DNA of 49,018 nt, from the NCBI GenBank assembly GCA_019115185.1, contig DXDZ01000013.1, positions 1-49,018 on the forward strand, read 5' to 3'. A model generated the notes under the pieces. It made no database searches, was not told where the DNA came from, and saw nothing but the letters and a program-made list of their open reading frames with translations. A program made the translations under genes and the position numbers. Origin of the DNA: Candidatus Agathobaculum merdipullorum. GTDB lineage: Bacteria; Bacillota; Clostridia; Oscillospirales; Butyricicoccaceae. The first letter of the stretch is position 1. Each line of letters starts with the position of its first letter. Below are positions 7,891-48,706 of the stretch, in pieces.

Positions 7891-7893
7891 TTG

Positions 7894-7932: not shown

Positions 7933-7937
7933 TTACT

Positions 7938-11265: not shown

Positions 11266-11268
11266 GCC

Positions 11269-12072: not shown

Positions 12073-12168
12073 CCTTCCGTCCTCATTTTCCCGTATCCTG
12101 TCTTTTGGCCTTGGGTTACACACGGCTGTCCTGCCGTCATGGTTGGTTTTTCGGTCTGCTTTGCAGTC

Positions 12169-12196
12169 ATTATATCATAGAAAGCAGGTTTTCCAA
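12169..12196 (-). promoter_or_regulatory. Promoter of the XDH operon
   Basis: On the minus strand TTGGAA (12191-12196) and a perfect TATAAT (12169-12174) are separated by 16 bases. The site lies between the divergent XDH and MATE genes. I saw no purine-riboswitch core in this intergenic stretch. Confidence 0.6.
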
Positions 12197-12331
12197 AGCG
12201 CTTTCCACGATTTTTCCACAGAAACCGCGTTTGTGCTTTATACCGCTTGACTTTGCTCTCAAATCATACTATACTTTAGGCAATTTACCCCCGGCCGATT
12301 TTTACCAAATTTCAACAGGAGGTGCGCGATC

Positions 12332-13681: not shown

Positions 13682-13716
13682 AAAAAGCTCCTCCGCTTTG
13701 ATGCAGAGGAGCTTTT
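13682..13716. terminator. Bidirectional terminator between MATE and permease genes
   Basis: AAAAAGCTCCTC (13682-13693) pairs with GAGGAGCTTTT (13706-13716), with A and T tracts on both sides, so it can end transcription from either convergent gene. Confidence 0.8.
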
Positions 13717-13731
13717 GCGTTTCACAAAACC

Positions 13732-15165: not shown

Positions 15166-15365
15166 TTTATCCTCCCTGCTTACCGTTTTGTGAAATGAAG
15201 CGTTTTTATTATAACAAAAACCGGCGCATGCTCCCACCTGCTTTTGCTGTTTTTTTGCCCCAAACCCGCATTTTCTACAAATAAGCCAACAGACCGCTTA
15301 TCAAAGCGCCTTCTCTTGTCTTGTTTGACGCAATGCGCCGCCGCATCCGCTTTGCCGCAAAAGAC

Positions 15366-15390
15366 AAAACCGGCTGCTTGAGCCGGTTTT
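15366..15390 (-). terminator. Terminator after xpt
   Basis: AAAACCGGCT (15366-15375) pairs perfectly with AGCCGGTTTT (15381-15390). It lies 14 bases beyond the xpt stop on the minus strand. The 238-base gap between xpt and pbuX shows no other feature. Confidence 0.7.
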
Positions 15391-15403
15391 GTTTGATTTT
15401 TGC

Positions 15404-15982
15404 TCAGTCCCGGAAGCGCACGGTCTGGGTTGCCGCATCCATACCGTCCACAATTGCCAGCGACTCGACGCGCAGCCCCTTTTCGCGCAGCATCTTGCCG
15501 CCGCACTGGAAGCCCTTTTCAATAACGATGCCAATGCCCGCGACATTGGCGTGCGCCGCTTCGATGATCTGGCACAGACCCATCGCCGCGCAGCCGTTGG
15601 CGAGAAAATCGTCGATAATCAGCACATTTTCGCCAGGCTGCAAAAACCGGCTGGCCACAATGACCTCATACTTGCGCTTGTGTGTAAACGATTCGATCGG
15701 CGCGGACAGCATGGTGCCATCCAGATTGATCGACTGCGACTTTTTGGCAAACACCACCGGCACGCCAAAATACTGCGCCGCAATCGCCGCAATACCAATG
15801 CCGGAGGCCTCGATGGTCAGGATCTTGTCGATCTTGACATCAGCAAAGCGCCGCTTGAATTCCTTCCCGATCTCGTTGAACAGCTCAATATCCATCTGGT
15901 GATTGAGGAAATTATCCACCTTCAGCACATTTCCCTCTTTAATGACGCCGTCTTTCCTGATTCGTTCTTTCAAAAGTTCCAT
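15404..15982 (-). CDS. xpt: Xanthine phosphoribosyltransferase
   Basis: The 192-residue type I phosphoribosyltransferase begins [12 protein letters not shown] and continues with a [13 protein letters not shown] segment, as in bacterial Xpt. The PRPP-binding loop is [13 protein letters not shown] near residues 125-137. It converts xanthine and PRPP to XMP in purine salvage. The start at 15982 follows AAGGAAGAG; a longer frame adds a basic stretch without a signal. It is the last gene inside the right end of the asnB element, about 120 bases from the att arm. The usual guanine riboswitch upstream was looked for and not found. Confidence 0.93.
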
Positions 15983-16096
15983 GTTCTTGCTCTTCCTTGT
16001 CCGTTTCATCCTCATATGTTCTTTTTAAAAGCATAACATTTTTCGCGCGCGCTGTATAGCTTTTTTTCACGGATTTTTTACATATTCCTGATTTTT

Positions 16097-16561
16097 ATGA
16101 TTCGGTATCCTTCTGCAACGCGGCTCGACCGCAAGGACCGCATGAGCATGTATTCCGGTTTGGAGGTGCGCGTGCCCTTCTGCGACCACCGCATTGTGGA
16201 GTACGCCTACAATATGCCGTGGGATTTCAAGGCGCTGGAAGGCCGGGAAAAAGGCATTGTGCGCCGCGCATTTGCGCACGAACTGCCGGAGGAAATCGTC
16301 CTGCGCAAGAAAAGTCCCTATCCCAAGACCTTCCACCCAGCCTATACCCGCCTGTGCGCGGACTATGTCCGCCGCATTTTTGAGGACAGCGACTCCATTG
16401 CCGCGCATCTGTTTAACCATGCCGCAGTCCAAGCGCTTATGGAAAAGCCAGAAAGTCTGGCGGAACCGTGGTATGGTCAGCTCATGCGCACCCCGCAGAT
16501 TTTCGCCTACATCATCCAGATCGACCGCTGGCTGCGGCAGTACAAGGTGCGGCTGGTATGA
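16097..16561 (+). pseudogene. asnB: Asparagine synthase, 3' part, cut off by the element
   Basis: The first ten codons of this open frame come from the element; from CTCGAC (16124) onward it is the C-terminal end of an asparagine synthase. LDRKDRMSMYSGLEVRVPF, DHRIVEYAYNMPWDFK and VLRKKSPYPKTFHP are typical of the AsnB synthase domain. The frame continues that of 3976-5372. It has no ribosome binding site of its own, so it is probably not made as a useful protein while the element is present. The start of the next gene lies 38 bases downstream. Confidence 0.88.
16103..16121 (-). repeat. Right att arm (attR) of the asnB element
   Basis: CGGTATCCTTCTGCAACGC matches the reverse complement of 5378-5396 at 18 of 19 positions. 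It lies one base from the GCTCGA core at 16123-16128, where asnB resumes. Confidence 0.85.
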
Positions 16562-36047: not shown

Positions 36048-36500
36048 TTATACCGCCACGCGCTTAGCCATAAACTGCGCGGCGGTCTGGCACAGCTTGA
36101 CCGTCACTTCGCTAGCCGATGCGCCCTCGTCCTCACTGACATAGACCACGCAGCCGCTGACATCCCCTTCGGTGATGATGGGCACCGCCACGACCACATT
36201 ATATTCGTCGTGATCGGACACCGTCAGCTCGGGCGCGTCATCCTCACCGCGCTCATACACCACACGCTGCTCCATCAGCTGCTCCAGCTCGGCGGAGATG
36301 CGTTTTTCGAGGATATCCTTTTTCGCGCCGCCTGCCGCGGCAATCACCGCGTCGCGGTCGCAGATCGCACAGCTCATCCCCGCCGTGCGGGCGAGCGCCT
36401 CAGCCAGTTCGCCTGCCACCGCGCCCATCTCGCCCATCGGGGAATACTTTTTGAAAATCACCTCGCCGTCGCGGTCGGTGAAAATCTCCAGCGGGTCGCC
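36048..36500 (-). pseudogene. spoVT: spoVT, 3' part (encodes residues 31-180)
   Basis: This stretch continues the SpoVT frame that begins at 48591. Joining 48591-48493 to 36491-36048 gives 180 residues, close to the 178 of B. subtilis SpoVT. It encodes the end of the AbrB-type DNA-binding domain (LEIFTDRDGEVIFKKYSP) and the GAF-like regulatory domain. In the integrated state it is translated only as the tail of the recombinase. Confidence 0.9.
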
Positions 36501-38204
36501 GTCACTGATAACATGGACATCGAAAATCTTGTCCTTCCGGCGCGAAGCCTGTTGGACGATGCGGCATGGTGCGGAATTTTCGATGCCCGACTTAAAATTT
36601 ACCGTGTTCTCCTCGGTGGCAGACTGCAAAATGGCGTCCACATCCGCCTGTAGCTGGACTTCCAGATGGTCTTCATAGACTTTGATATGGCGGATAATCA
36701 GTTCGAGGTCGTTGCGCTCCAAATGATCCTTGTCAAGCACATCGCGGAACACCTCCATGGCTGTCCGCGCCGCCCGATTGACCTGAATGATGGTGTTGCG
36801 CTTATCCGACAGCAGTTCGATCTGATGATGGATGCCCTCGATTTTCTTTTGCAGATCGGCTTCCAGACCATCGTATGTTTCCTCCAGCAAGGCTTCCTGT
36901 TCCGGGTGCTTCATCAGGTCGCGGATGCGCTGGCGCTTGGTGACCTTGAGTTCCTCTTGCAAATCGGCCAACACCACTGCCAGATGGTCGGCACTCCGTT
37001 CGGTTTCGGCGACATCCTGTTGCTCGCGTTCCAGATCGCCGTTTAGCTGTTCCAGCATATCGGCGGAATGATCCATCACCTGCCGGATATAGCATTTCAG
37101 CAGCTCGTCCAGCTTGTCCGCCCGGATGTGGTGTGAGGTGCAGCCCGCCCGCCCCCGGCGGTGGTAGGTTCCGCAAGTGTAGGCCGGTTTGAGGTCGCTG
37201 CGGCTCATCGCGAACATGGGTGCACCGCAGTCGCCGCAGGAGAGAAAGCCGGAATACACGTTGTTGTACTTTTTGATGCCGCGGTAGTGCGCGGTACTGC
37301 GCTTTTCCCGCAGCGCCCGCGTGATGGCAAAGGTGCGGTACTCCAGAATGGGCTGGTGATGCCGCTCAATCACGATTTGCTCGGCCTCATCCTGCCGGAT
37401 GTCCTTGCCGTTGATCTTCTGGCGGGTATACTTACTCTGCCGCAGCGTGCCGATGTAAAAATCATTATCCAGAATGCCCTGCACCGTGACGATTGCCCAC
37501 GCGGACTTCACTGCGCGCCGGTATTCCATCCCGGCGGCTTCCTTGCGGTCCCGCTCGGCCATGCGTGGCGTGGGCACACCCTGCTCGGTCAGGTAATTGG
37601 CAATCTTCTTGTAGCCCCAGCCTTCCTCATTGTAAAGCCGGAAGATAGTGCGCACGATCTCAGCCTCGGTCGGGACGATCTCGAACTCCTGCCGTGCGTT
37701 GATGAGATAGCCGTAGGGCGCGGCGCAAATCCACTTGCCGTCGGCCTGCCGGCGGCGGATTACATTGCGTACCTTTTTGCTCGTGTCGGTGACCGGCATC
37801 TCGTTGATGAGAAACTGAAACTGGATTTTCAGCCAGTCGTCGTCGTTCGGGAAATCAATGCCATCCCCAATCGAGATGATGCGCACCCCTGCGTCCCGCA
37901 AGTCCTCCAGTTCCACCAGACCGCGGCTGTTGCGCCGGGAAAAACGCGAAAAGTCCTTGATGAGCAGGATATCGTACCGGTGCGCCATCAGCTCCTTACG
38001 CATGGCCTGATAGCTCTCGCGCTGTTCAAAGGTGTAGCCTGAGCGGTCGCGGTCCTCGTAAAAGGTGAGCGTGCTTCCCGGGAATTTCTGCTTGACAAAA
38101 TCCTGCAAAATAGCTTTCTGGTTTTCGATGGATACGTTGTCGCGGTCCAACTCATCATCCACCGAGATGCGGCAATAGCCCGCAATATCGAATGTTTCTC
38201 TCAT
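36048..38204 (-). CDS. Large serine recombinase fused in frame to the C-terminal part of SpoVT
   Basis: The 718-codon frame is a chimera. Residues 1-568 are a large serine recombinase: resolvase domain with catalytic Ser14 in GYCRIS, the KDFSRFSRRN motif, a recombinase domain, a zinc ribbon (CGDCGAPM, about 318) and a coiled coil. Residues 569-718, from GDPLEIFTDRDGEVIFKKY on, are the C-terminal region of SpoVT, including its GAF-like domain (SCAICDRDAVIAAAGGAKKD). The junction is the 9-base core 36492-36500. In the excised circle the recombinase would instead end with 24 other residues (SQMTWTRSERFSVGMLDLAK, then RCGW), giving 595 residues. The start overlaps rhuM-like gene stop by 4 bases. 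Confidence 0.95.
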   Translation of the reverse strand: MRETFDIAGYCRISVDDELDRDNVSIENQKAILQDFVKQKFPGSTLTFYEDRDRSGYTFEQRESYQAMRKELMAHRYDILLIKDFSRFSRRNSRGLVELEDLRDAGVRIISIGDGIDFPNDDDWLKIQFQFLINEMPVTDTSKKVRNVIRRRQADGKWICAAPYGYLINARQEFEIVPTEAEIVRTIFRLYNEEGWGYKKIANYLTEQGVPTPRMAERDRKEAAGMEYRRAVKSAWAIVTVQGILDNDFYIGTLRQSKYTRQKINGKDIRQDEAEQIVIERHHQPILEYRTFAITRALREKRSTAHYRGIKKYNNVYSGFLSCGDCGAPMFAMSRSDLKPAYTCGTYHRRGRAGCTSHHIRADKLDELLKCYIRQVMDHSADMLEQLNGDLEREQQDVAETERSADHLAVVLADLQEELKVTKRQRIRDLMKHPEQEALLEETYDGLEADLQKKIEGIHHQIELLSDKRNTIIQVNRAARTAMEVFRDVLDKDHLERNDLELIIRHIKVYEDHLEVQLQADVDAILQSATEENTVNFKSGIENSAPCRIVQQASRRKDKIFDVHVISDGDPLEIFTDRDGEVIFKKYSPMGEMGAVAGELAEALARTAGMSCAICDRDAVIAAAGGAKKDILEKRISAELEQLMEQRVVYERGEDDAPELTVSDHDEYNVVVAVPIITEGDVSGCVVYVSEDEGASASEVTVKLCQTAAQFMAKRVAV
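36492..36519 (-). repeat. att site at the recombinase end of the spoVT element
   Basis: On the minus strand the arm TGTCCATGTTATCAGTGA, then C, then the core GGCGACCCG, in the recombinase frame (codons 568-571). The arm matches that at 48475-48492 in inverted orientation at 16 of 18 positions. Confidence 0.85.
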
Positions 38205-39226
38205 GGTGCATCACCGCCTTTCAGGTAGCGCTCCATGGCGCGGTCAAATTCGGAGACATAGTCTGCATCCTGCTTTTTGCGGAACTCCGCATAGATATCG
38301 CTGACTTTTTTCACCGCGTCCTCCCGCGAAATATGACCTTTCCCCTCCAGAACCTTGCGCCGGTTGTTGGTGAGGAAACGGTCTGTTTCGTGGAGCCAAT
38401 CCGCCATGCTCATGGGCTGCTCGTCCTCGGCCATCAACTCGGCGTAGTCGATAAACATGGTCACCAACCGGTTAAGACGGGCAAGCTCTTTCTCATTGAG
38501 GTAGTTTTTCGCGATCAGTGTATCGCTTTTCAGGATTTTCCCGTCCGGTGCACCTTTCCATGTGGTCAGACCCATGGTAGGGCTGTCCAGCGTGGCGCGC
38601 TCTGAGATCAGCTCCGCTGCTGTTTTACCGGTAACGGCAAAGTGAAGTTTGTTCTGTACAAAGGCATAAAATGCCTTTGTTGTGTCGCTGTTTTTGTCGT
38701 AGTCGTAACTGCACTGCTCAAACACATCGGCAATTTTCTGATAGGCCCGCCGCTCACTGGCTCGAATTTCACGGATGCGCTCCAGCAGTTCGTCAAAGTA
38801 GTCCCGGCCGAACGGTTTGCCGTTTTTCAGCATGTCATCGTTGAGGACAAAGCCCTTGGTGATGTACTCTTTCAGCGTTTTGGTGGCCCACTGGCGGAAC
38901 CGGGTGGCCTTTTTGGAGTTTACTCGGTAGCCCACAGCGATGATAGCGTCCAGATTGTAGTGCTCGAGCGTGCGGCGCACCTGCCGGGCGCCCTCCTGCC
39001 GAACCACCGAGAATTTCTCGGCAGTTGCCTGCGGCGTCAATTCCTCCTCCGCATAGATGTTCTTCAGGTGCAGGGAAATATTATCCGTCGTACAGTCAAA
39101 CAGCTCGGCCATGCCGCTTTGGGTCAGCCAGAACGTTTCATCCCGGAACACCACGCTAACAAACGCTTTTTCCCCGTCGTTGCTGTACAGCAAAATTTCC
39201 CCCTGCTGCATCGGCTGCTGGTCCAT
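38201..39226 (-). CDS. RhuM-family protein
   Basis: The 341-residue protein belongs to the RhuM family, named after a Salmonella pathogenicity-island protein and frequent on mobile elements. Landmarks are FWLTQSGMAELFDCTTDNIS, SVVRQEGARQVRRTLEHYNL and RFRQWATKTLKEYITKGFVL, and a C-terminal part with KSDTLIAKNYLNEKELARLN. The biochemical role of the family is not established; the N-terminal part looks like a DNA-binding or Fic-associated module. It overlaps the recombinase gene by 4 bases and is probably co-transcribed with it. The start follows GGAGGGATG. Confidence 0.88.
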   Translation of the reverse strand: MDQQPMQQGEILLYSNDGEKAFVSVVFRDETFWLTQSGMAELFDCTTDNISLHLKNIYAEEELTPQATAEKFSVVRQEGARQVRRTLEHYNLDAIIAVGYRVNSKKATRFRQWATKTLKEYITKGFVLNDDMLKNGKPFGRDYFDELLERIREIRASERRAYQKIADVFEQCSYDYDKNSDTTKAFYAFVQNKLHFAVTGKTAAELISERATLDSPTMGLTTWKGAPDGKILKSDTLIAKNYLNEKELARLNRLVTMFIDYAELMAEDEQPMSMADWLHETDRFLTNNRRKVLEGKGHISREDAVKKVSDIYAEFRKKQDADYVSEFDRAMERYLKGGDAP

Positions 39227-39320
39227 GTCATCCCTCCATCCGACAATAAGATTTGTTTTCGCAATTCATATTACAGATAACATTGTACGACAACTTGCAG
39301 ACAATTGCAAGCGGAAAACC

Positions 39321-39358
39321 GAAAAACGGGGAGAGGCATCGGGAACCTGCCCCTCCCC
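39321..39358 (-). terminator. Terminator downstream of the mobilization genes
   Basis: GGGGAGAGGCA (39328-39338) pairs with TGCCCCTCCCC (39348-39358); on the minus strand a T5 run follows. It lies just beyond the stop at 39363. Confidence 0.7.
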
Positions 39359-39362
39359 ATTT

Positions 39363-39659
39363 TCACAGGCTGATATCTGGCTGCCGCCGCTTCCGCACAT
39401 CCTGCTCTGCCAGCCGACGACGGTTGTACAGCAACAAATCCCGGGTCTGTTGGTACAGATCGGCTTCTCCGGACAGAAATACCGCCACCAAATAGTTTTT
39501 TGCCTTATACTGCTGGAACAACGGTTTGAGCGATGACTGGAATGCCGGGTCGTCTTTTTCTGCCCGAGTCAGCCACAACTCGACGATTTTTTGTTCCTTT
39601 TGCACGCGCATTTGCAATGGGTCATCATCTCCTTGCCAATAGTTTCCTCTGTTTTGCAA
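39363..39659 (-). CDS. Hypothetical protein next to the relaxase
   Basis: A 98-residue charged helical protein with EQKIVELWLTRAEKDDPAFQ and a Gln/Tyr-rich middle; no membrane segment and no recognised family. The TTG start at 39659 has only AAGG upstream; an ATG at 39611 would give 82 residues. It follows the relaxase by 49 bases on the same strand and is likely part of the mobilization unit. Confidence 0.6.
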   Translation of the reverse strand: MQNRGNYWQGDDDPLQMRVQKEQKIVELWLTRAEKDDPAFQSSLKPLFQQYKAKNYLVAVFLSGEADLYQQTRDLLLYNRRRLAEQDVRKRRQPDISL

Positions 39660-39708
39660 AAAGTTATACCTTGCTGCGGTAGGATCTCAGCGCACGCATT
39701 TTTCTGTT

Positions 39709-41094
39709 TCATCGTTCCCGCTCTTGCTCCCGTTCCCGCTTGCGCTGCTTCGGCGGGTGCACCAGAGACTGCCGCAGCGCGCGCTCCGCGCGCAGGGCCG
39801 CCTGCATGTCCGCCCGGGTGCCAAGCACCCAGCGGGCTGTCTTGCGCTGCCGATACAGAGGCTGCAACGCCGCGGTATAGCCGTCGCACTCCTGCCGCAG
39901 TTCTGTGCGGCGTTGCACATCGCGGCAGCGCCGCAGGCGGTTGTAGCACTGATTACGCTCAGCCCGCAGCTGTCCGATCTGCCGGGCAAGGGCATCAAGA
40001 AACCGCTCGACGTCGCCCACTGTATGCAGCTGTGCCCGATGTACCAGACGCAGCTGCTCGCAGAACTGCCGCGTCCGGCGGCAGGCTTCCTGCAGTCCGG
40101 GTGACAGCGGTGCGCGCATGCGCTTTTTGTGGAGCAGGCCGAAAAAGTAGCAGTAGTGGAGATAGAGCGCCCAGAAACCGCCGATTTTCTTCGTATGCCG
40201 GAAACTGCCCTTCACCCGCCGCTTGGGGATAACGGCATGCCGCAGCGCGATATAGTGGTCGCGATCTGCCCGATAGGCAGGGTATCGGACGGCTGGCGTC
40301 AGCCGGAAGATGCGCGCCTGTATTTCCTGCACCGTGTACCCGTTGCCCAGCCGGTACAACCGCACGGGCTTTTTGCTGCCGACGGCCCGGATGGTGGGAT
40401 ATTTGTGGCTGGGCGTGCAGTCCAGCACATAGCCTCGTCGGGCAAGGCTTTTGGCGAAATACCGAAAGTCGGGGCTGACCGCGATGCACTCGTCAATGGC
40501 CTGCCGCATGAGATTGTACCGCGTGGGCGCGTTCTGCTTTTCGGCAAAGTAAAGACTGCGCGGCGTTCTGCCGCCGGGATGTTCCACCACCGAAAGGCCA
40601 TATTGGCGGCAAAGCGCGTCCGAGGTCTGGGACAATGCGCGGTAGGCCGCCCGGCTGCAATTAAACTTTTTGCCATCGACAAAGCTGACCGCGTTGAGCA
40701 CAAAATGGTTGTGAAAAGTACCTGTATTAAAGTGGGTGGCCACCAGCACCTGATACCGTTCGCCCCACAGCTGCCGGGCGAGCTCGATACCGATCTGATG
40801 GCACTGCTGCGGGGTGGCTTCTCCCGGGCGAAAACTTTGATAGGCGTGATAAGCTACATTACCGTCCATTTTGTCGTACTGCTCCTGAACGGCCAGCATC
40901 TCCCGGAACGCGGTATCCCTGCCGCAGTTGATACCGGTGACGAACACAGTCTTCTCCTGCCCGGTTTTCTCCCGATTGCCCGCGTAACAGAGCACGGCCT
41001 CCAGATCAGGACATTGTGTTTTCTCCGGGTTTTCGGCGTATTCCACCACCCGGCGCACGCTGTCCTTAATGGGCCAGATTTTGGTTACTGCCAT
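39709..41094 (-). CDS. Relaxase/mobilization nuclease
   Basis: The 461-residue protein is a plasmid-type relaxase. The N-terminal ~190 residues hold the pfam03432-like nuclease fold: MAVTKIWPIKDSVRRVVEYA with a candidate catalytic Tyr near residue 19, YHAYQSFRPGEATP, and the metal-binding histidine motif ATHFNTGTFHNHFVLN near 120. The C-terminal half is basic and helical and ends in an Arg/Glu repeat. It should nick oriT and pilot the strand during mobilization by a helper conjugative element. It overlaps the MobC-like gene by 10 bases. Confidence 0.93.
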   Translation of the reverse strand: MAVTKIWPIKDSVRRVVEYAENPEKTQCPDLEAVLCYAGNREKTGQEKTVFVTGINCGRDTAFREMLAVQEQYDKMDGNVAYHAYQSFRPGEATPQQCHQIGIELARQLWGERYQVLVATHFNTGTFHNHFVLNAVSFVDGKKFNCSRAAYRALSQTSDALCRQYGLSVVEHPGGRTPRSLYFAEKQNAPTRYNLMRQAIDECIAVSPDFRYFAKSLARRGYVLDCTPSHKYPTIRAVGSKKPVRLYRLGNGYTVQEIQARIFRLTPAVRYPAYRADRDHYIALRHAVIPKRRVKGSFRHTKKIGGFWALYLHYCYFFGLLHKKRMRAPLSPGLQEACRRTRQFCEQLRLVHRAQLHTVGDVERFLDALARQIGQLRAERNQCYNRLRRCRDVQRRTELRQECDGYTAALQPLYRQRKTARWVLGTRADMQAALRAERALRQSLVHPPKQRKREREQERER

Positions 41095-41390
41095 CCTGCA
41101 TCCCCTTCTTTTTCCATATGGAAGCAGGTCTGCATCATGGCATGTGTAATGGTTTGCAGCTGCTCCGCTACCGCATCAGGCGGCATGCTTGTCCACTCTT
41201 GCTGTAGCCGGAGCAGCTGGCTATACGCCCGGTACAGTGCCGGCGGCGCGATGGAATACACGTCCTTTCCCAGACTGCACTTACGCAGATAAGCGGACAG
41301 GCTGAGTCCGCAACGGCGGGCGTTCCGGCAGATACACTGTTTTTCCTTTTCGCTGACGCGCACCTGAACGGCGCAGGTTCGTTGTCGCAA
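41085..41390 (-). CDS. MobC-like relaxosome accessory protein
   Basis: The 101-residue basic protein resembles plasmid mobilization MobC/relaxosome proteins: VQVRVSEKEKQCICRNARRC with the following GLSLSAYLRKCSLGK is a ribbon-helix-helix-like DNA-binding segment. It has a TTG start at 41390 supported by GGAAGGAG 9 bases upstream. It overlaps the relaxase gene, and a candidate oriT lies just upstream. It probably opens oriT for the relaxase. Confidence 0.85.
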   Translation of the reverse strand: MRQRTCAVQVRVSEKEKQCICRNARRCGLSLSAYLRKCSLGKDVYSIAPPALYRAYSQLLRLQQEWTSMPPDAVAEQLQTITHAMMQTCFHMEKEGDAGWQ

Positions 41391-41495
41391 AGTTTGTCAC
41401 TCCTTCCCAAATTGGGGTTACAGGGGCGCGCCCCTTTCGGCTGTGCCGCCGGCTTTTGTGGCAACACAAAGCCTATGCTCGCTGTACCCCAGGAC

Positions 41496-41536
41496 ACCCT
41501 GGCGGGTGGCCTGGTTTTCGTCAGGGTATGCGCCCC
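41496..41536 (+). other. Candidate origin of transfer (oriT)
   Basis: In the ~180-base gap upstream of the MobC-like gene ACCCTG (41496-41501) and CAGGGT (41522-41527) form an inverted repeat. ATGCGCCCC follows at once and resembles the TGCGCCC nick region of IncQ-type origins. A GGGGCGCGCCCC palindrome lies about 60 bases nearer the gene. Position and shape fit an oriT, but there is no direct proof. Confidence 0.4.
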
Positions 41537-41572
41537 GGTTTGTGACAGCGATGACAGTGGTGACGGCGACTG

Positions 41573-42592
41573 CTATATCGGGAATTTACCGTCATCGCCG
41601 TCATTGCCGTCATGTCGGACGGTAAGATATAGCAGCCGCTCCGCGGCAGTGCGGCGTGTGGTGTAGATGATGCCATGCGGCGCCAGCGCGCGTTCCCAAT
41701 AACGGGCGATCAACTTGGTTACGTTATTGGCGGTCACCTCAGTTTCACCCATGGCTGTCAGCAGCGCGGTAGCGCTGCCCTCCCAGTGGTCATGCTGTTG
41801 GACAAACGCTGTCAGCCGAAGAAGAAAGGGTGGAATCTCCTCCATGGCGAGCGCTTCGCCGTCCTTACGCTCCACCAGATGCCAGCGGCAGTCGACAAAG
41901 CGTAGCGTCAGCTGCTGATATACAATGTCGCGGCCGGTGGCCAACAGCGTGGCCTGATCGCCGCCCCGGCTACTACGCTTGAGAATCAGCGCGGAATCCG
42001 CGGCACCCTGAATTGCCGTAGAGCCCGAGACCTCGTTGAACGGATCGGCGGCATCGGTCAGCTTGCGCAAATGATGAACTAGCAGAATACAGAGATTATG
42101 GCGGTCGGCCAGCTGCTTGAGCGCGGCAATGTCACTGTAATCAGCGGCATAGGGACTGCCGCGGCTAACCACGTTGTCCCGTACCTTTTGGAGCGTGTCT
42201 ATAATCATGAGTTTGGTCTGGGGAAACTGTTGCAGATGGTCTTCCAGCTGTTCCTGCAGTCCATGCCCCAACCGCTGGCACCAAACCGAGAACAGAAGAT
42301 TGGACGGTGCCTGATCGGTCAGCTGGAATAGGCGGTTCTGGATGCGGCTATACGTGTCCTCCAGACAGAGGTACAGAACCTGACAGGGCAGCGTTTTCAG
42401 TCCCCAGACCGGCAATCCACAGGCCACTTGCAGCCCAAGCCAAAGTACCAGCCAGCTCTTGCCGATTTTGGACGCACCGCATAAGATGTGCACCCCTTGC
42501 GGCAGCAGCCCTTCCACCAAAAAGCTGGTTTGGCGCAGGGGCGAGGACAGCAGCGTATCGGCATCTACAACGGTCAGCGGTTCAACAGTCAC
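41573..42592 (-). CDS. RepA/AAA_25-like ATPase
   Basis: The 339-residue protein is a RecA-fold ATPase like hexameric RepA helicases of mobile elements. Walker A is CGASKIGKSW (about 36-45), Walker B LMIIDTLQ, then LVHHLRK and SGSTAIQGAADSALILKR. A winged-helix-like C-terminus follows. It may serve in element replication or maintenance. The GTG start at 42592 is supported by GGAGG and overlaps the helix-turn-helix gene by 11 bases; the longer frame has no such site. The last residues are an Asp/Gly repeat. Confidence 0.87.
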   Translation of the reverse strand: MTVEPLTVVDADTLLSSPLRQTSFLVEGLLPQGVHILCGASKIGKSWLVLWLGLQVACGLPVWGLKTLPCQVLYLCLEDTYSRIQNRLFQLTDQAPSNLLFSVWCQRLGHGLQEQLEDHLQQFPQTKLMIIDTLQKVRDNVVSRGSPYAADYSDIAALKQLADRHNLCILLVHHLRKLTDAADPFNEVSGSTAIQGAADSALILKRSSRGGDQATLLATGRDIVYQQLTLRFVDCRWHLVERKDGEALAMEEIPPFLLRLTAFVQQHDHWEGSATALLTAMGETEVTANNVTKLIARYWERALAPHGIIYTTRRTAAERLLYLTVRHDGNDGDDGKFPI

Positions 42593-42812
42593 GGAACTCC
42601 GCCTCCTGTTCCATGATGTAGCGAATGACGCTGATCTTTGGGATACGGTAGGCATTGCCAATCCAGAAGCCGGCGAGTCGCCCTTCCCGGATGAGGTCAT
42701 AGGCTAGATGGCGGCTAATACCCAGCATTTTCTGCAGTTGCGAGACATTCACGATATCGGGGTATTGCGGAAACATCACAGCGTAGCGTTCCCGTAACTC
42801 GGTCTTTTTCAC
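42582..42812 (-). CDS. Excisionase-like helix-turn-helix protein
   Basis: A 76-residue protein with a MerR/excisionase-type helix-turn-helix: NVSQLQKMLGISRHLAYDLI then REGRLAGFWIGNAYRIP. The GTG start at 42812 is supported by AAAGGAGG. Proteins like this act as regulators or as excision factors on mobile elements. It is the first gene of the element's leftward mobilization unit, and the repeats at 42825-42922 lie directly upstream. Role in excision is possible but unproven. Confidence 0.82.
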   Translation of the reverse strand: MKKTELRERYAVMFPQYPDIVNVSQLQKMLGISRHLAYDLIREGRLAGFWIGNAYRIPKISVIRYIMEQEAEFRDC

Positions 42813-42824
42813 AAAGCATCCTCC

Positions 42825-42922
42825 TTTGCACAAATTTGATTTGTGGTAAAGCGAATCGGCCATATTCGTTTGCACAAGATCAGCATAGCGTGGCTTGTGG
42901 CAAAGCACAAGATGTGGTAAAG
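42825..42922. repeat. Iteron-like direct repeats in the divergent gap
   Basis: Two motifs occur three times each: TGTGG(T/C)AAAG at 42842-42851, 42896-42905 and 42913-42922, and GCACAA(A/G)AT at 42828, 42872 and 42905. They lie between the helix-turn-helix gene and the DUF6076-like gene. They may be operators or an origin bound by the nearby HTH or RepA-like protein. Confidence 0.6.
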
Positions 42923-42972
42923 TATTTATGTGTACAATAGTATTACACGTTGTGGAAAGGGGGGGAAATCCG

Positions 42973-44151
42973 GTGCCCTATTATGAAATGAGTTTGGAAA
43001 ACCAGCGGGAATATGTGTGCCAGAACGATTTTACTGTGGCGGAAAACGCACTTGGCGCGTGGCTGATCGCTTTTCTCGATGTGGATTGGACCGACCTCAT
43101 CAAAAAAACAGAGTCCCTCCGTGAAGATCACGAAGGAACTCTGTCCAAATTCAGATGGATGCAGGAGAAACAGCGCCGGCAGTGGGAACTGACGTACAGT
43201 GAGCGGGTGGTTGCGTGGTACCATGGACTGAAAGAAACGCTTTCCTCGCGCCATCCGCTGCTGAAGCTACTGGTGGAGCAGCAGATCCGCAACCGACTTC
43301 TCTCCGCACTCCAGCCGAAAAATCTCGCAGAACTCCGTATGGATGTACTGCATTATGTAGAAGTGCTGGACGGCACCCGGGCGCACAGCGAACAGACCAT
43401 GCTTTCCCCCATGGACCTACGTCCATGGCTGCTGGAAGCGGAGCAGATTTTTTTCACGCTCAAAACCTGTCAGGCGCAGCTGCTCCCCCTACTCGATCAG
43501 GTCATGGGCGGCGATCCCGAAAAGGATCACGGCATTCTACAACGGTATCACCAGATGCAACAAAAGGATTTGTCGTTTCAATGTATGGTGGAACAGAGCT
43601 ACCGGCTGCTGTCGCCCCAATTCCGTATCACCAGCGTCCACAGGATATATCGTTCCGATCTACTGAAAGAGATCGCGCCACAGATGGATCAGCTGGAGGG
43701 GCATACCTATATGGTCACAGATGCACTGGAGGCCCTCACCCTGTGGGAGTTTGAGATGATTTGCGCCAATGAAATCCTCCTGCGCCGGTGTTCCTATTGC
43801 AACCGCTATTTCCGCCCCTATTCGGTGGTCAGCTGCTACTGTGACCGTCCGGTAGAGGGCAAAGGCGAGAAAACCTGCAAGGAAATCGGGGCGATGTCCC
43901 GACACCAGCAGAAAGTCAATCAGGACGAGGCCAAAAAACTGTATCGAAAGGTTTGCAACCGCACCCAGATGGCCGCCCAGCGGCGCAAAGGGCAATATCC
44001 GGATATCCTGCGACGGTACCGTCAGGTGCAGCTGCGCGGCAAGGAACTGCTCGAGCAGGTGGAGGCAGGTACTATGACGTTCTCGCAGTTTCAGCAGCAG
44101 TTCGATAAAAAACCAGGGGAACTGCTGGGAATTAGGTACGCGCGCAATTAA
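42973..44151 (+). CDS. DUF6076-like protein with a Cys-rich zinc-type motif
   Basis: The 392-residue protein is recognised only as DUF6076-like. The N-terminal ~270 residues are helical and the conserved part is near residue 285: LLRRCSYCNRYFRPYSVVSC then YCDRPVEGKGEKTCKEIGA, a set of cysteines like a zinc finger, followed by RHQQKVNQDEAKKLYRKVCN. The GTG start at 42973 follows GGGGGGG; an ATG 45 bases upstream has no ribosome binding site. It is the only plus-strand gene of the element's central part and is divergent from the helix-turn-helix gene. Role unknown; common on Clostridia mobile elements. Confidence 0.75.
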   Translation: MPYYEMSLENQREYVCQNDFTVAENALGAWLIAFLDVDWTDLIKKTESLREDHEGTLSKFRWMQEKQRRQWELTYSERVVAWYHGLKETLSSRHPLLKLLVEQQIRNRLLSALQPKNLAELRMDVLHYVEVLDGTRAHSEQTMLSPMDLRPWLLEAEQIFFTLKTCQAQLLPLLDQVMGGDPEKDHGILQRYHQMQQKDLSFQCMVEQSYRLLSPQFRITSVHRIYRSDLLKEIAPQMDQLEGHTYMVTDALEALTLWEFEMICANEILLRRCSYCNRYFRPYSVVSCYCDRPVEGKGEKTCKEIGAMSRHQQKVNQDEAKKLYRKVCNRTQMAAQRRKGQYPDILRRYRQVQLRGKELLEQVEAGTMTFSQFQQQFDKKPGELLGIRYARN

Positions 44152-44180
44152 TTTTTGCTGCACAAGCAGTAAAAAAGCGA

Positions 44181-44309
44181 TTACCGCTTAGATTTACCCT
44201 TATACTCGTACTTTTCTTTCGCTGTATCGATCATGAGATAAACGATTTTATATAGAACAACCAGAGAGCAAACTCCAACAAAGCATCGCAAACGCCATCG
44301 AAATTGCAT
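44181..44309 (-). CDS. Candidate small membrane protein
   Basis: A 42-residue frame, MQFRWRLRCFVGVCSLVVLY followed by KIVYLMIDTAKEKYEYKG, has a basic start, one hydrophobic segment and a charged end, a plausible small membrane protein. A ribosome binding site is weak (GGAG close to the ATG). The gap 44152-44657 otherwise holds the IS3-derived fragment (44411-44588) and nothing else that I see. Confidence 0.3.
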   Translation of the reverse strand: MQFRWRLRCFVGVCSLVVLYKIVYLMIDTAKEKYEYKGKSKR

Positions 44310-44410
44310 CTCCGTCGAAATCTGGAAACAAAAAGACAACCAAATCACTGATTGGTTCATACAGGAGGACCAAAGACAAAAAACTCATTATAAAGCCCGC
44401 CGTCTATAAG

Positions 44411-44588
44411 TGAACTGCACCCCATTTGTTAGACAGTATGGTATACTGAATAACAAGTGGGGTGCATTATTATACCGAAAGGAATACCGAACAAACGCTA
44501 CTCACCAAAATTTAAGCGAACGGTAGTAGAAACGATGCGACATGAACGCTTATTTGAAAATATTGTCTAACTTTTGGGGGGCACTTCA
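44411..44588 (+). mobile_element. IS3-family (IS150-like) internally deleted element
   Basis: The 178-base element has ends TGAACTGCACCCCATTTGTT and TGAAGTGCCCCCCAAAAGTT (reverse complement of the right end), with 20 of the first 25 bases matching. It keeps the start of the orfA protein (PKGIPNKRYSPKFKRTVVET) and nothing of the catalytic part. A 4-base TAAG direct repeat flanks it (44407-44410 and 44589-44592). It is a non-autonomous, MITE-like derivative. Confidence 0.7.
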
Positions 44589-44657
44589 TAAGAGCGATGG
44601 GCTTTACACACGATATCATTTGGTTGACCTTCGCACGGTTGTGCGTCTTGCAGAGCA

Positions 44658-45326
44658 TTATCTACCTATTTTTGCAATTAACTTTCGAAGTGCCTGCTTC
44701 GTCAAGTGAGCATTTTGAAGGGCGAGGCTAAGAGTTTCCTTGTCTTCGTCTGTTAGTTCGTAATCGTCAAGGCCCGTGGCTTCCAGATAGGTATCCAGTT
44801 CAGTGATGCAACCCTGCTCCACTTCCGCAATACAATCTTGCTCCAATTCTGCAATATAACTCTGCATAGACTGCCAGTCGATATCATTGACTGTATATTC
44901 GTGGTCTGTGTCAGGAGATTCAACAATAGGGAGAGAAACTACGGTTTCATTGACCTTGTCCTTAAAATGTCTAACAAGAAAACTTTGGTAATACTCACTG
45001 TGCTTGTTTAGTATCGCCATGAAATACATAGCGATTTTCTCGTTGAAACCCTGAAATTTAGGTATCAAGGTTTTTGTGAATTGTCCGGCATAAAAATCAT
45101 GATGCATATAGTGGAACCTCATGCTTATCATGCCAACAGCTAAAGAATTTCCCTTTATCTTATGCTTCTCATCAAGATATTCGACATATCCCAATATTCC
45201 ATTATTATTCTCTGTTCTCGTGAAATATGGATACTCTGCCGACTCATTGAAAGTGAAGTTCTCTTTATCAAGTTGCGGGTTGTTAATTACTTCAAACAAA
45301 TCCTTAATGTAAAAGTCCTTAAACAT
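44658..45326 (-). CDS. Restriction-modification specificity (S-like) subunit
   Basis: The 222-residue protein resembles one target-recognition half of a type I or BcgI-type specificity subunit: YPYFTRTENNNGILGYVEYL, KGNSLAVGMISMRFHYMHHD, then QFTKTLIPKFQGFNEKIAMY and SEYYQSFLVRHFKDKVNETV. A C-terminal helical coiled stretch with AELEQDCIAEVEQGCITELD is the dimerisation part. It overlaps the methylase gene by 8 bases. DNA sequence specificity cannot be read from the sequence. Low GC compared with the neighbouring genes suggests a separate origin. Confidence 0.8.
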   Translation of the reverse strand: MFKDFYIKDLFEVINNPQLDKENFTFNESAEYPYFTRTENNNGILGYVEYLDEKHKIKGNSLAVGMISMRFHYMHHDFYAGQFTKTLIPKFQGFNEKIAMYFMAILNKHSEYYQSFLVRHFKDKVNETVVSLPIVESPDTDHEYTVNDIDWQSMQSYIAELEQDCIAEVEQGCITELDTYLEATGLDDYELTDEDKETLSLALQNAHLTKQALRKLIAKIGR

Positions 45327-47355
45327 TTGTGTTCACCTCGTTTTTCAAAAACACGCTCACTTTCCATCTCAGATAATCCGTTACAGCCGTCTTAAAGTCA
45401 TCTTCTATAGGCGTGGTGTCAATCTTCTTATGCTGGTTAAAGGTCCAGTCATCACCATTCAGCGAGACTGTATCTTTGATGACAAGGCCGTTTGTTTCAG
45501 TGTAGTAATTCGTCTTTGGTTTCTTGCCAAGACAAATTGCCGCTACTTCGTCATAGCGTTCAAGTGCGTGGTCTGTATTTCGCAAGTTAACCTTCTGCGT
45601 GGACTTCTTGCGATTTTGGCGAGTATATCCATCTTCCGAAAAGTCAATAAACGTCACAACGTCATCAGCCTCATGTGGGCGGTTGACTCGGAACAAGTAG
45701 ATTGCTGTCTGCACAGATGACTTGCCGCTAAACAGGTCATCCGGCATGTGGATGCTTGCAATCAGCGTATTCTTCTGCAAAATCTTCTTTGCATATACGT
45801 CACCCGACCCGCTGCCCGCATTCTCCTGAATCAGAACAGCACCATATCCCGTCTCCATGCGCGACAACGCTTCATCAACAAAGATGAGACCTTTGCCTGG
45901 CGCCGAATAGGGCGGATTCAGTAGGAACACGTTCGCAGGAAACGTATCTCTATGGCTTTTGATGAACTTCGGGCCCTCCTTGTGCGAATCTCCGCAGATA
46001 ACCTGAGAGGAACCGTCGCCCATAAGAATCATGTTGAGGACGGCAAGGATGTAGATATTGCCAAGAATTTCGATACCAAGTAGCTGATTATGCTTGATGT
46101 GGTCAATCTTGCTATTCAGTGACTGCACGTCCTTGATGTGTTTTTTTGCGTCGTCGATCATGATTTCCATAGCCGACACCAGGAAACCGGACGAACCCAT
46201 ACAAGTATCCCATACGAACGAATCCATATCCGTTCTCGTGATTCGCGCCATCAAAGTTGTCACGAAGCGTGGAGTCAATACCACATCGTTGAGCTTGTCG
46301 TTCTCAATAGCAACCCAATCGCTTAGACTATTCAAAATTTTGCCCGTAAAATCAAGGTGAATATTGCTTTCAAGAAGCGGCAATATATCCTCTTTGACTT
46401 GTCTGTAAATGGACTTTATGGTGCTTTCGCCATTCACAGGCTTCCAAAGATCGCGTTTCTCGAACACGGGCTTTAAATAGTTCAACACCATGTTGACCTT
46501 GTCGGTCGAGCAATTTTTCTTGCGCAGGAATGCTTTTGTCCTACGCAAAACAATGTTCCCATCGTTGTCGTCATGGTCGTCGTTAGAATAAAAATCTGCT
46601 ACTTCCAGCGGCTTCACACCCTCCGTCGTAAGCCCCGCCATAATAAGGCCGCAGAACAGGTACAGCTTCTCGTTTGTACCAAGTAAAGTTTTGATGCTCG
46701 CATCATCGTAAATCCTCTGATGGATTCCCTTGATGCTTTGCTCCAGCAGCTCTTCTTTGTCGCGTTTGAGTTTCTCTTTCTCGACTTTCGTCAGTGAAAG
46801 CTTGTCAAGTTTGGCAAAAAACGCGTCAATGTTCGACCTCTTCATTTCCACGAAAGTAAAGTCGGCAAGCTCTTTTGGAATTCTGTCATTCTTCTGCGAT
46901 ACGTAATATGCCTTGGCCTCAGGGTCCTTAACGCACCCCTCTTCAAGTGTTGTACCGTTGATGCCGATGATGATGACTTCGCTGTATGTGCCCTCATCCA
47001 GAATCGCCATACCGTAGTGCAAAGCACCGTTCACGGCAAACTGTTGCACGGCTCGATTCGGATTTTTGTCGCCGCTCACAAGTTCAATATCACCGTTGGA
47101 TGTCAGTTTTTCCAGCTTCCCCTTTGTTCCTTTAGCCTCAATCATCACAGGAATATCCCGGCGATTTTCATTCTGTAACAGGAGCTGGATATCCGGATAG
47201 TTTACGCCCGAGCCGCCAGACTTCGAATTCGCCTCTTTGAGTGCCTTGGTGATAGAACCGTTAATCTCCTCTGTCTTCCCATAATGCCGTATGCCGAGGT
47301 TGTCCAAAAGTGTTTTGAAGTGTTCTTCCACCTTTTCTTCTATACTTTTTGCCAT
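45319..47355 (-). CDS. N-6 adenine DNA methylase with N-terminal nuclease motif (BcgI-like RM subunit)
   Basis: The 678-residue protein joins a nuclease and a methylase. The N-terminal part has YPDIQLLLQNENRRDIPVMI followed by EAKG, fitting a PD-(D/E)xK nuclease (D..ExK). The methylase core has motif I DTCMGSSGFLVS (about 385) and motif IV LLNPPYSAPG (about 475), which binds S-adenosylmethionine and the target adenine. With the S-like subunit this forms a bifunctional, BcgI-type system that would cut unmodified DNA, possibly defending the element and host. It follows the RHH-like gene at once. Nuclease activity is inferred. Confidence 0.85.
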   Translation of the reverse strand: MAKSIEEKVEEHFKTLLDNLGIRHYGKTEEINGSITKALKEANSKSGGSGVNYPDIQLLLQNENRRDIPVMIEAKGTKGKLEKLTSNGDIELVSGDKNPNRAVQQFAVNGALHYGMAILDEGTYSEVIIIGINGTTLEEGCVKDPEAKAYYVSQKNDRIPKELADFTFVEMKRSNIDAFFAKLDKLSLTKVEKEKLKRDKEELLEQSIKGIHQRIYDDASIKTLLGTNEKLYLFCGLIMAGLTTEGVKPLEVADFYSNDDHDDNDGNIVLRRTKAFLRKKNCSTDKVNMVLNYLKPVFEKRDLWKPVNGESTIKSIYRQVKEDILPLLESNIHLDFTGKILNSLSDWVAIENDKLNDVVLTPRFVTTLMARITRTDMDSFVWDTCMGSSGFLVSAMEIMIDDAKKHIKDVQSLNSKIDHIKHNQLLGIEILGNIYILAVLNMILMGDGSSQVICGDSHKEGPKFIKSHRDTFPANVFLLNPPYSAPGKGLIFVDEALSRMETGYGAVLIQENAGSGSGDVYAKKILQKNTLIASIHMPDDLFSGKSSVQTAIYLFRVNRPHEADDVVTFIDFSEDGYTRQNRKKSTQKVNLRNTDHALERYDEVAAICLGKKPKTNYYTETNGLVIKDTVSLNGDDWTFNQHKKIDTTPIEDDFKTAVTDYLRWKVSVFLKNEVNTNV

Positions 47356-47586
47356 TTACTTCTCCACCTCCTCAAGATGCTCCTGCACCCACTCGTGGAT
47401 GATTGCTGCAATCGTCGTCTCGCGCTCCGTAGCCATCATCTTGAGAGCCTTCTTATCGCTCACGGCGAGCGACAACGAGAGCGTGGTGCGCTTCTCGTCC
47501 GCCGCTGTATCGGCAACAACGGCCTTCTCTATCTTCTTCTGCTCGGCCTCGAGGTCAGCAGCGTACTTCTCAAACACATTCGCCAT
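47356..47586 (-). CDS. RHH-type small regulator of the RM operon
   Basis: The 76-residue protein has an N-terminal helix and a C-terminal ribbon-helix-helix-like segment, RTTLSLSLAVSDKKALKMMA then TERETTIAAIIHEWVQEHLE. It starts after AAAGGAGG and its stop abuts the methylase start. It is likely a DNA-binding regulator of the operon, acting as a controller protein, or the antidote of a toxin pair; the first is preferred because no toxin gene is next to it. Confidence 0.7.
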   Translation of the reverse strand: MANVFEKYAADLEAEQKKIEKAVVADTAADEKRTTLSLSLAVSDKKALKMMATERETTIAAIIHEWVQEHLEEVEK

Positions 47587-47622
47587 GACTCGACCTCCTT
47601 TGATTATTTACATATTTGTACA

Positions 47623-47652
47623 ATTATACACCGCAGAGTACCCTCTTGTCCA
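47623..47652 (-). promoter_or_regulatory. Promoter of the restriction-modification operon
   Basis: On the minus strand TGGACA (47647-47652) and TATAAT (47623-47628) are 18 bases apart. The following TTGTACAA (47616-47623) is palindromic and overlaps the -10 side, a possible operator for the RHH-like protein. Confidence 0.5.
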
Positions 47653-47677
47653 TACAAAACAAGCCTTCTACCTGCGG

Positions 47678-47785
47678 TTATTCTTTCGAGAACCCAGCCG
47701 CCTCGTAAACCGTGTCCACCAGAGTGCGGGTCGCCTTTGCCGCCTTGCCACGACGCTCAAACTCGACCACCGCTTCAGAGAAGTT
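47678..47785 (-). pseudogene. Remnant of a protein-coding gene
   Basis: An open 36-codon stretch NFSEAVVEFERRGKAAKATR followed by TLVDTVYEAAGFSKE looks like a true protein C-terminus but is preceded by an in-frame stop and has no start. It probably is the 3' end of a decayed gene. Family not identified. Confidence 0.35.
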
Positions 47786-47793
47786 TTAAGGCA

Positions 47794-47830
47794 TAAAAAA
47801 GCCCGATGGGTGCGTGAGCACCTCAACGGG
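47794..47830 (-). terminator. Terminator-like hairpin near the right end of the spoVT element
   Basis: CCCGATGGGTGC (47802-47813) and GCACCTCAACGGG (47818-47830) form a stem with one bulge; T6 follows on the minus strand. It would stop transcription coming from the spoVT promoter before it reaches the restriction genes. Confidence 0.6.
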
Positions 47831-47879
47831 TCTAAAACGTCTTAGAACGCAAAATCAAACTTTTTCGCATCAACGAATA

Positions 47880-48300
47880 CTGAAAGGGGACGCCATCAGG
47901 CGTCCCCCACCCTATACACAAGCACAAACTTATTCTTGTAAAAGAAGAGTTCAACGCTTCCTACTCTGGTGAAGCTGACAAAAAGTTGAATTCTGGAAGG
48001 AAGCAACTGAATGTACGCTAAAGCGCAAGACGGAGCCGCACTGAAATAGTACAAGCGACTGGGGACATGACCAGGGAAACAGTATGTCATCTAGGATCCC
48101 AAGCGAATTAACACGTCACTGGTGGTATGAATGCAGGAAAGACGAACTGAAAAAACCGGCATAGACGCACAGATACCATCAGGAAAATACAACACATGCG
48201 TGCAACACGTCCGGTCATCCAAGATATCTTTGAGCAAAATTCAAATATGACAAATTACGCCGCCAATTGGGAGCTGGCGAAAATATAGAGTATAAAAATA
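47880..48300 (+). ncRNA. Non-coding, structured-looking stretch; possible group II intron remnant
   Basis: No convincing protein is encoded here. The text has many stem-like pieces, for example GGGGACGCC-ATCA-GGCGTCCCC (47885-47906). Phrases such as GCAAGACGGAGCC and GACTGGGGACATGACCAGGG remind me of domain I of bacterial group II introns. No reverse transcriptase and no domain V were found, so if correct it is only a fragment. The remaining gap to 48417 contains a GGCCC-type inverted repeat (48308-48332) and nothing else. Confidence 0.3.
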
Positions 48301-48417
48301 TGAAGGCCCCTGCGAAATTCGTAGGGCCCTCCTGTTGATAAGAAAAAACAGTTTTGCTGTGATTGCTATGCTAAATCACACGTGATTTCAAGGGCCCTTT
48401 CTTCAGCAAAGAATCAG

Positions 48418-48591
48418 TTACCAGCCGCAGCGCTTGGCCAGATCCAGCATCCCAACGGAAAACCGCTCTGACCGTGTCCATGTCATCTGTGACGGGTCGC
48501 CCTCGCGGATACGCAAGGTGCGGCGGATTTCCTTCGGAATGACCACGCGACCCAAATCATCAATACGGCGCACAATGCCGGTTGCCTTCAT
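48418..48591 (-). CDS. spoVT: SpoVT, 5' part, with a foreign 24-residue tail
   Basis: The 57-residue product begins MKATGIVRRIDDLGRVVIPK and continues EIRRTLRIREGDP, the N-terminal part of SpoVT, an AbrB-type forespore transcription factor. After residue 33 the sequence switches to SQMTWTRSERFSVGMLDLAK then RCGW, which is the displaced C-terminus of the element's recombinase. The final strand of the swapped-hairpin DNA-binding fold and the whole GAF-like domain are missing. GGGAGGG precedes the ATG at 48591. It is probably inactive unless the element excises. Confidence 0.92.
   Translation of the reverse strand: MKATGIVRRIDDLGRVVIPKEIRRTLRIREGDPSQMTWTRSERFSVGMLDLAKRCGW
48475..48501 (-). repeat. 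att site at the spoVT 5' end
   Basis: The core (48493-48501) and the 18-base arm TGTCCATGTCATCTGTGA (48475-48492, plus strand) are the inverted partner of 36502-36519. Confidence 0.85.
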
Positions 48592-48706
48592 TTACGCGTT
48601 CCCTCCCATACGCAATTTCTGGTTGTACAGGTAGTATGACTGGAACGCGGCGCATTATACAGCGGCAGTTCTGGCAATTTTTAACGCGCATAGGCAAATT
48701 TTTCGT

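Follow-up and report, generated by a model that had tools for sequence, protein, structure and literature searches.

A relaxase-bearing serine-recombinase element splits the sporulation gene spoVT and is predicted to trade C termini with it upon integration

A serine-recombinase element of 12,001 bp interrupts the sporulation regulator gene spoVT of Candidatus Agathobaculum merdipullorum at codon 32. We studied this element in a stretch of 49,018 nucleotides (contig DXDZ01000013.1 of assembly GCA_019115185.1; hereafter, the window). The window makes up contig C73 of the assembly, which has 86 contigs and 1.70 Mb in total and an estimated completeness of 90%. On balance, we consider it probable that the recombinase gene of this 12-kb, relaxase-bearing element spans attP, that integration swaps its C terminus with that of SpoVT, and that both genes would be restored by excision, likely timed to sporulation. 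The split, the att sites, the recombinase, and the preserved frame had been recognized in a first-pass annotation made from the window alone; the recombinase-SpoVT_C fusion, the conserved recombinase tail, and the relaxase cargo had gone unnoticed there.

RESULTS

Both halves of spoVT lie on the minus strand. The N-terminal half (codons 1 to 33, MKATGIVRR..REGDP; 48591 to 48493, start at 48591) reads MKATGIVRRIDDLGRVVIPKEIRRTLRIREGDP and matches TIGR02851 (1 to 35) and PF04014, and the C-terminal half, SpoVT_C (codons 34 to 180 plus stop, from LEIFTDRDGEV..; 36048 to 36491), matches PF15714 and TIGR02851 (26 to 178). The core CGGGTCGCC occurs at 36492 to 36500 (attL) and at 48493 to 48501 (attR, where the predicted exchange point is the GA of codon 32), i.e., at a spacing of 12,001 bp; a third copy (47727 to 47735) lies away from either junction. 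End to end, the halves encode 180 residues, and their flanks, once joined, align through the junction with the intact spoVT locus of a congener (G019) over 1,146 bases with 0 gaps and 91.4% identity, the neighbor genes both upstream and downstream agreeing with that locus as well. The window sequence and this alignment bear out the earlier claims that spoVT is broken by an element with readable att sites and that precise excision would give a 180-residue SpoVT; the break is a frame-restorable one in a sporulation gene, as in gene-intervening elements. An intact second copy, which would have spoken against the split, was not found in a TIGR02851 search of the whole assembly (90% complete), which recovered the two halves and an 85-aa AbrB-like gene only.

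At attL, SpoVT_C is in frame with the recombinase, forming a 718-aa open reading frame (ORF; 36048 to 38204, minus strand) that carries the domains of a large serine recombinase (Resolvase, Recombinase, and zinc ribbon; PF00239, PF07508, and PF13408, all above cut-offs). At attR, a stranded tail of 24 recombinase codons plus stop (48421 to 48492, minus strand), reading SQMTWTRSERFSVGMLDLAKRCGW, follows the N-terminal half of spoVT in frame to give a 57-aa hybrid ORF; the tail at the same place in Butyricicoccus pullicaecorum is SQTTLTWWEAFCFGMLDLSKRQGW. Related loci were collected from a one-genome-per-species set (36 distinct loci, of which 35, L036 to L070, reach the recombinase end), and in 33 of the 35 the frame continues from ..VISDGDP into LEI.. 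of SpoVT at the same codon. Likewise, a search of 5.8 billion proteins with the junction and the SpoVT_C part as query scored 7,999 candidates, of which 4,479 were hits, and 119 of the 120 proteins listed hold both the recombinase and SpoVT_C domains. The recombinases of the fused loci are 66 to 91% identical to that of the window and their SpoVT_C parts 37 to 70%, indicating that the element moves and that SpoVT_C belongs to the host.

The tail follows SpoVT codon 33 in frame in 25 distinct cases, 23 of which are alike by eye and two of which (G374 and G380) are divergent; left out of this count were L077, L078, L127, L134, and L134b (other elements), L084 (truncated), L143 (a duplicate), and L082 (an identical tail). 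Beyond the att arm, the ratio of nonsynonymous to synonymous change (pN/pS) in 24 tails was 0.45 in frame 0 versus 1.01 and 1.47 in the shifted frames (pooled, nonindependent pairs), and a low ratio solely in the real frame speaks for the tail as a selected protein. The att arm itself showed little synonymous change (pS 0.41), a pattern that fits a site acting as DNA. Were attP located inside the recombinase gene, the recombinase in its free form should bear the tail in place of SpoVT_C. A search using the B. pullicaecorum recombinase with its own tail gave 137 hits, and among the 120 listed, 11 lack SpoVT_C. Five of these (P0121, P0122, P0123, P0124, and P0125) end in the tail, the N-terminal part of P0121 being foreign; the other six (P0126, P0156 to P0158, P0211, and P0214) have ends that are wholly or largely unrelated, which suggests insertion at other sites or joins. 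As the junctions read, attP sits within the recombinase gene and integration is predicted to swap the C termini: the recombinase would give up its 24-residue tail and gain 147 SpoVT residues, and SpoVT codons 1 to 33 would gain the tail.

In the 24 element pairs with both ends, the attP arms matched at 10 to 17 of 20 positions (median 15.5; window, 16), compared with a median of 9, a 95% point of 11, and a maximum of 15 in shuffled arms; the attB arms had no symmetry (median 9). The best attP center was the GA of codon 32 in all 24 pairs, GA was present on both sides in all 24, and the restored reading frame was open across the junction in every pair. In two pairs attP reads GAC and attB reads GAG, which fits exchange at GA. 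Symmetric attP arms around a dinucleotide common to attB, as expected of large serine integrases, are found family-wide, so that the arm symmetry previously noted for the window extends to its relatives, two of the 24 pairs excepted.

We surveyed 87 genomes of the family and a sample of 394 genomes of the order, 368 of which gave any match. A fused C-terminal half was present in 10 of the 87 (G000, to which the window belongs, G002, G026, G043, G044, G049, G052, G056, G063, and G067) and in at least 30 of the 394, the latter count being a minimum since re-examination covered 27 genomes picked by eye on E-value. Three genomes flagged by E-value were not counted as split: G128, which is intact; G131, which begins exactly at codon 32 at the edge of a contig; and G355, in which the intact gene spans two contigs with the break exactly at the core. 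The breaks in G131 and G355 are of the kind that arises where an assembly forks, and may be a sign of movement or of mixed strains. Both halves lay within one contig in 17 genomes, in 16 of which the N-terminal half precedes the C-terminal half on the same strand, the orientation needed for excision, at distances of 7.0 to 38.3 kb (for G442, one of the 16, the N-terminal match is partial, 8 to 35). Six named isolate genomes are split without an intact copy, including B. pullicaecorum DSM 23266 (halves on two contigs), Flintibacter muris DSM 110149, and Chakrabartyella piscis BP5G (a complete chromosome, from a different order). Most members of the window's genus have an intact spoVT. Bin G075 holds two versions of spoVT, one intact with GAG at codon 32 and the other, on a separate contig, an N-terminal half plus tail with GAC, a pair predicted by exchange at GA; the first 95 coding bases of the two copies are identical, and their 47-base upstream stretches differ by what looks like a one-base insertion or deletion in a T run.

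Another four of the 394 genomes (G045, G147, G186, and G410) appear to hold other elements at codon 32. Those of G147, G186, and G410 (L100, L098, and L110) have a frame that stops before the junction, and an N-terminal half was found for G186 and G410 only. In G045 (C2:697996 and 938272; L077 and L090) and G046 (L078 and L089), both among the 87 family genomes, spoVT is split by a different recombinase; in G045, 240 kb separates the two halves, which are on opposite strands and have inverted-repeat arms (by eye), such that inversion of the segment would restore spoVT. Relatives of the recombinase in L065 and L038 are integrated elsewhere, the neighbor in L065 being presumably a lepA-like gene.

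An all-against-all comparison of 14 elements (six partial) revealed one small gene conserved besides the recombinase. It was found in all 14, with weak matches in G366 (E = 2e-7), G380 (7e-5), and G374 (3e-4), and encodes 82 aa in the window (39366 to 39611, minus strand; longer ORF, 39363 to 39659). In 11 elements the gene is found upstream of the recombinase at a distance of no more than 1.2 kb; it lies at the other end in G043 and on the other strand in G380, and its position in G358 was left unplaced by our script. Family searches gave no family above cut-off for this protein, its structural model (predicted local distance difference test [pLDDT] score, 74) no fold match at E ≤0.001, and a sequence search no solved relative (best E, 0.08). 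By analogy with CD1234 of the C. difficile skin element (PMC5025042), it is a candidate recombination directionality factor. In G045, whose element is of the other type, a 100-aa protein that looks related by eye is encoded ahead of the recombinase.

A domain scan of ten ORFs of the window element (recombinase, hybrid, and eight cargo ORFs) assigned the cargo as follows, on the minus strand unless stated: a RhuM-family protein (38201 to 39226), a MobA/VirD2-like relaxase (39709 to 41094), a NikA-like mobilization protein (41085 to 41390), an AAA_25 ATPase (41573 to 42700), an HTH_17 DNA-binding protein (42582 to 42908; excisionase-like match below cut-off), a DUF6076 protein (42895 to 44151, plus strand), a type I restriction specificity-like protein (44658 to 45326), and an N6 DNA methylase (45319 to 47355). 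A 76-aa ORF (47356 to 47586, minus strand) gave a weak match, below cut-off, to a possible ribbon-helix-helix protein. The relaxase and NikA-like genes point to an integrative mobilizable element, to judge from gene content: an integrase and a relaxase are present among the ten ORFs scanned, and no secretion-system family was found among them, smaller ORFs lying outside the scan. A prophage was considered and rejected, as no phage structural family was found in the ten scanned ORFs of this one element. Viral contigs held no relative; among phage records one match (H2) spans 80% or more of the query, and among plasmid records none does. An unverified "Bacteriophage sp." record (MT836658) holds a fused relative at 47% identity.

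A second forespore gene, sigG, is also split in this assembly (G000:C17:19699-19977 and C80:3531-4022; L148, L149, and L196). We examined 14 genomes of the genus, including this one, in which sigG matches in two pieces (congeners, L183 to L202); the junction (..STYAVPM and IIGEIRRY..) is the same in all 14, and in the 13 others a serine recombinase 76 to 92% identical to that of this assembly adjoins the C-terminal half. With pairs of saturated synonymous divergence (dS) left out, the ratio of nonsynonymous to synonymous divergence (omega) had a median of 0.076 for the N-terminal half (median dS 0.95; 89 pairs) and of 0.051, up to 0.61, for the C-terminal half (dS 1.3; 77 pairs). Both halves are under purifying selection while split. 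The match of the C-terminal half stops early in G004, G011, G017, and G018, in which more than the split may be wrong with sigG; G016 gave a full-length sigG match and G002 a near-full one (2 to 236). In G005 the halves lie about 757 kb apart on one contig on opposite strands, so that either restoring the gene would take an inversion or the two halves work as separate chains. These observations suggest that members of the genus still sporulate and that they tolerate or use forespore genes split by recombinases. In a genome of another family (G263 C1; L150), sigG is split at the same codon with its halves 17 kb apart on one strand and a 50%-identical recombinase next to the C-terminal half; the same genome has inverted split spoVT halves.

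The window itself holds a second serine-recombinase segment (5347 to 16127; recombinase at 6346 to 7890, plus strand), which splits a gene that we take to be asparagine synthetase-like between ..DWFMATLL and DRKDRMS... By eye, its ends share GCTCGA with matching inverted arms, the longest shared string found by our script being a different one, and the genes inside presumably serve purine uptake and xanthine dehydrogenase functions.

Several observations bear on whether excision is developmental. A predicted sigF/sigG-like promoter (GTATA-N17-CATACTA; 48632 to 48660, minus strand) lies upstream of the N-terminal half of spoVT. Such promoters were predicted in 14 of 25 split cases and in 10 of 29 intact ones, whereas shuffled sequences gave 0.09 and 0.08, respectively. 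No fused genome has a stop within the C-terminal half, the host keeps spo0A, and 28 of 31 split genomes have a full or near-full sigG match. In C. difficile, spoVT is under sigF and sigG control and acts in the forespore, not the mother cell, and a spoVT mutant gave no heat-resistant spores (PMC3789822), so that permanent loss of spoVT should be costly. Between the window and its five nearest congeners, omega of the C-terminal half is 0.04 to 0.06. Purifying selection was nevertheless abandoned as an argument that the halves function, since in three split species of one genus, not that of the window, dS of the element was below that of the host.

DISCUSSION

Like skin, gin, yin, and SPbeta-spsM, the spoVT element is a serine-recombinase element that splits a sporulation gene which precise excision would rebuild (PMC5025042, PMC5595907, PMC10747680, PMC4191935), and, like gin, it is not a prophage, to judge from the ten ORFs scanned. 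It differs from them in that excision is known there and predicted here, that its target is a forespore regulator, so that loss of the element would be heritable, that attP lies in the recombinase gene with the C termini swapped, and that it carries mobilization genes and occurs in many genera. The mother-cell genes spsM and spoVFB carry intervening elements, and DNA rearrangement in the mother cell is harmless because that cell dies. The described elements in sigK, gerE, and yabG likewise sit in mother-cell genes (PMC5025042, PMC5595907, PMC10747680), a trait that the spoVT element, judged from C. difficile spoVT, lacks (PMC3789822). With spoVT a forespore gene, as in C. difficile, the excised state would be inherited, unlike that of skin. 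By analogy, it is plausible that the spoVT element is a sporulation intervening element of the skin kind.

The integrase of myxophage Mx8 is a tyrosine recombinase, unlike the serine recombinase of the spoVT element. The two are alike in that attP lies within the integrase gene and integration gives that gene a new 3' end (PMC6070905), altering the C terminus; in the spoVT element, however, a whole host regulatory domain is exchanged and the host gene loses it, whereas Mx8 int is not known to carry a developmental regulator domain of its host. Mycobacteriophage BPs has integration-dependent immunity (PMC4557955). With its attachment site within a gene, this phage likewise alters the end of a protein upon integration, which serves as a switch. 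BPs switches its repressor, whereas the spoVT element would switch its recombinase. Among solved structures, the SPbeta integrase YokA (9dxh and 9dxd; E = 3e-23, residues 53 to 423), which we take to be SprA, is nearest in sequence to the tailed recombinase P0124; YotN in these structures is presumably SprB. YokA belongs to the same enzyme class and acts in a sporulation gene rearrangement (PMC4191935), yet is distant from P0124 in sequence; a predicted structure of P0124 (mean pLDDT 51) was set aside. Among open-licence papers, we found no report of a split spoVT, a recombinase-SpoVT_C fusion, an attP inside a serine integrase gene, or a split sigG, in line with the first-pass annotation, which knew of no described spoVT case; two papers (PMC10294663, PMC4880562) name spoVT solely in gene tables.

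The mechanism that we propose builds on what can be read directly in the DNA, namely, ORFs across both junctions, a conserved tail, a shared codon, empty sites, and natural tail-bearing recombinases. The tailed recombinase would integrate the circle at attB inside spoVT, with exchange at GA, and in the integrated state the SpoVT_C-bearing recombinase would be kept inactive or altered in direction. Artificial fusions of integrases with directionality factors alter direction in known systems (PMC5737554). The small protein would then act as a directionality factor, driving attL x attR excision. Excision in the sporulating cell would rebuild SpoVT in the forespore, where the sigF/sigG-type promoter would be active, and the circle would re-integrate after germination or be mobilized by its relaxase. 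For sporulation-timed excision, which the sequences suggest, we see about even odds.

Several observations weigh against this proposal. The arm symmetry of G043 and G044 (10 and 11) is within the shuffle range, a strict attP DNA pattern was found in none of the 394 order genomes and no viral contig, the halves of G263 are inverted, and two of the 35 loci (L038 and L065) sit at other sites. Bin G075 may be a mixture of two strains, and the shared frame of recombinase and spoVT could have arisen by chance, at odds of one in three, in a single ancestral event. In the three split species mentioned above, the recombinase-SpoVT_C ORF has a dS of about 0.30 versus about 0.4 to 0.6 in the host flanks (one gene up to 1.2); those hosts are therefore older than the element, and intact halves are not necessarily a sign of function. 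The C-terminal half may owe its low omega to times when the gene was intact.

In another account, an ordinary integrative mobilizable element targets spoVT and leaves it broken, excises only rarely, for transfer, and allows few or no spores until it is lost. The relaxase and NikA cargo, the variable cargo and half-to-half distances (7.0 to 38.3 kb), the lower dS of the element in the trio, and the intact spoVT of most genus members all fit such an element, as does L037, whose recombinase is 91% identical to that of the window and whose host SpoVT_C is 47% identical, indicating movement between distant hosts. It explains less well why the C-terminal half is stop-free in all fused genomes with codon and frame kept, why sigG is full or near-full in 28 of 31 split genomes and its split form in the genus is under purifying selection, and how hosts would bear a loss that, in C. 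difficile, left no heat-resistant spores (PMC3789822). We regard this account as a serious contender, though a somewhat doubtful one. SpoVT_C is a sensor-like domain, and the recombinase-SpoVT_C protein or the 57-aa SpoVT-N/tail hybrid could itself be the regulator, making excision unneeded; nearly every case seen has the two hybrid ORFs open, and the N-terminal half has the predicted promoter in 14 of 25 split cases. Yet the hybrid retains 26 of 48 positions (the first part) of the AbrB/MazE-type DNA-binding domain, recombinases without SpoVT_C also bear the tail, which explains its conservation without the hybrid, and SpoVT_C tracks the host gene rather than the element, all of which makes this very unlikely. 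That the junctions are assembly or binning joins might be suspected of a window from an 86-contig assembly and had been raised with the earlier annotation, but this is refuted by the one-contig architecture in 17 genomes, including the single-contig, 2.9-Mb G385 and the complete Chakrabartyella piscis chromosome, by the six named isolate assemblies, and by the fusion in 119 of the 120 database proteins listed.

If excision during sporulation does restore spoVT and the recombinase, a broader reading, which we regard as unlikely in its entirety, is that of a germ-line switch: the SpoVT_C end would silence the recombinase or sense the forespore, excision would return both SpoVT and an integrative recombinase, and the spore would inherit an empty site and a circle that re-integrates or is transferred after germination. 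Together with the split sigG, the forespore program would then run on DNA rearrangement. With excision in the forespore, the rearranged genome would be that of the spore, so that either the element re-integrates, as the free tailed recombinase could accomplish, or each sporulation frees it. A widespread splitter of a forespore gene thus raises the question of developmental excision in the cell that founds the next generation, and of how the element survives it. The C-terminus trade would be a natural, sequence-readable difference between the integrated and the free form of a serine integrase, and may be useful for controlling directionality.

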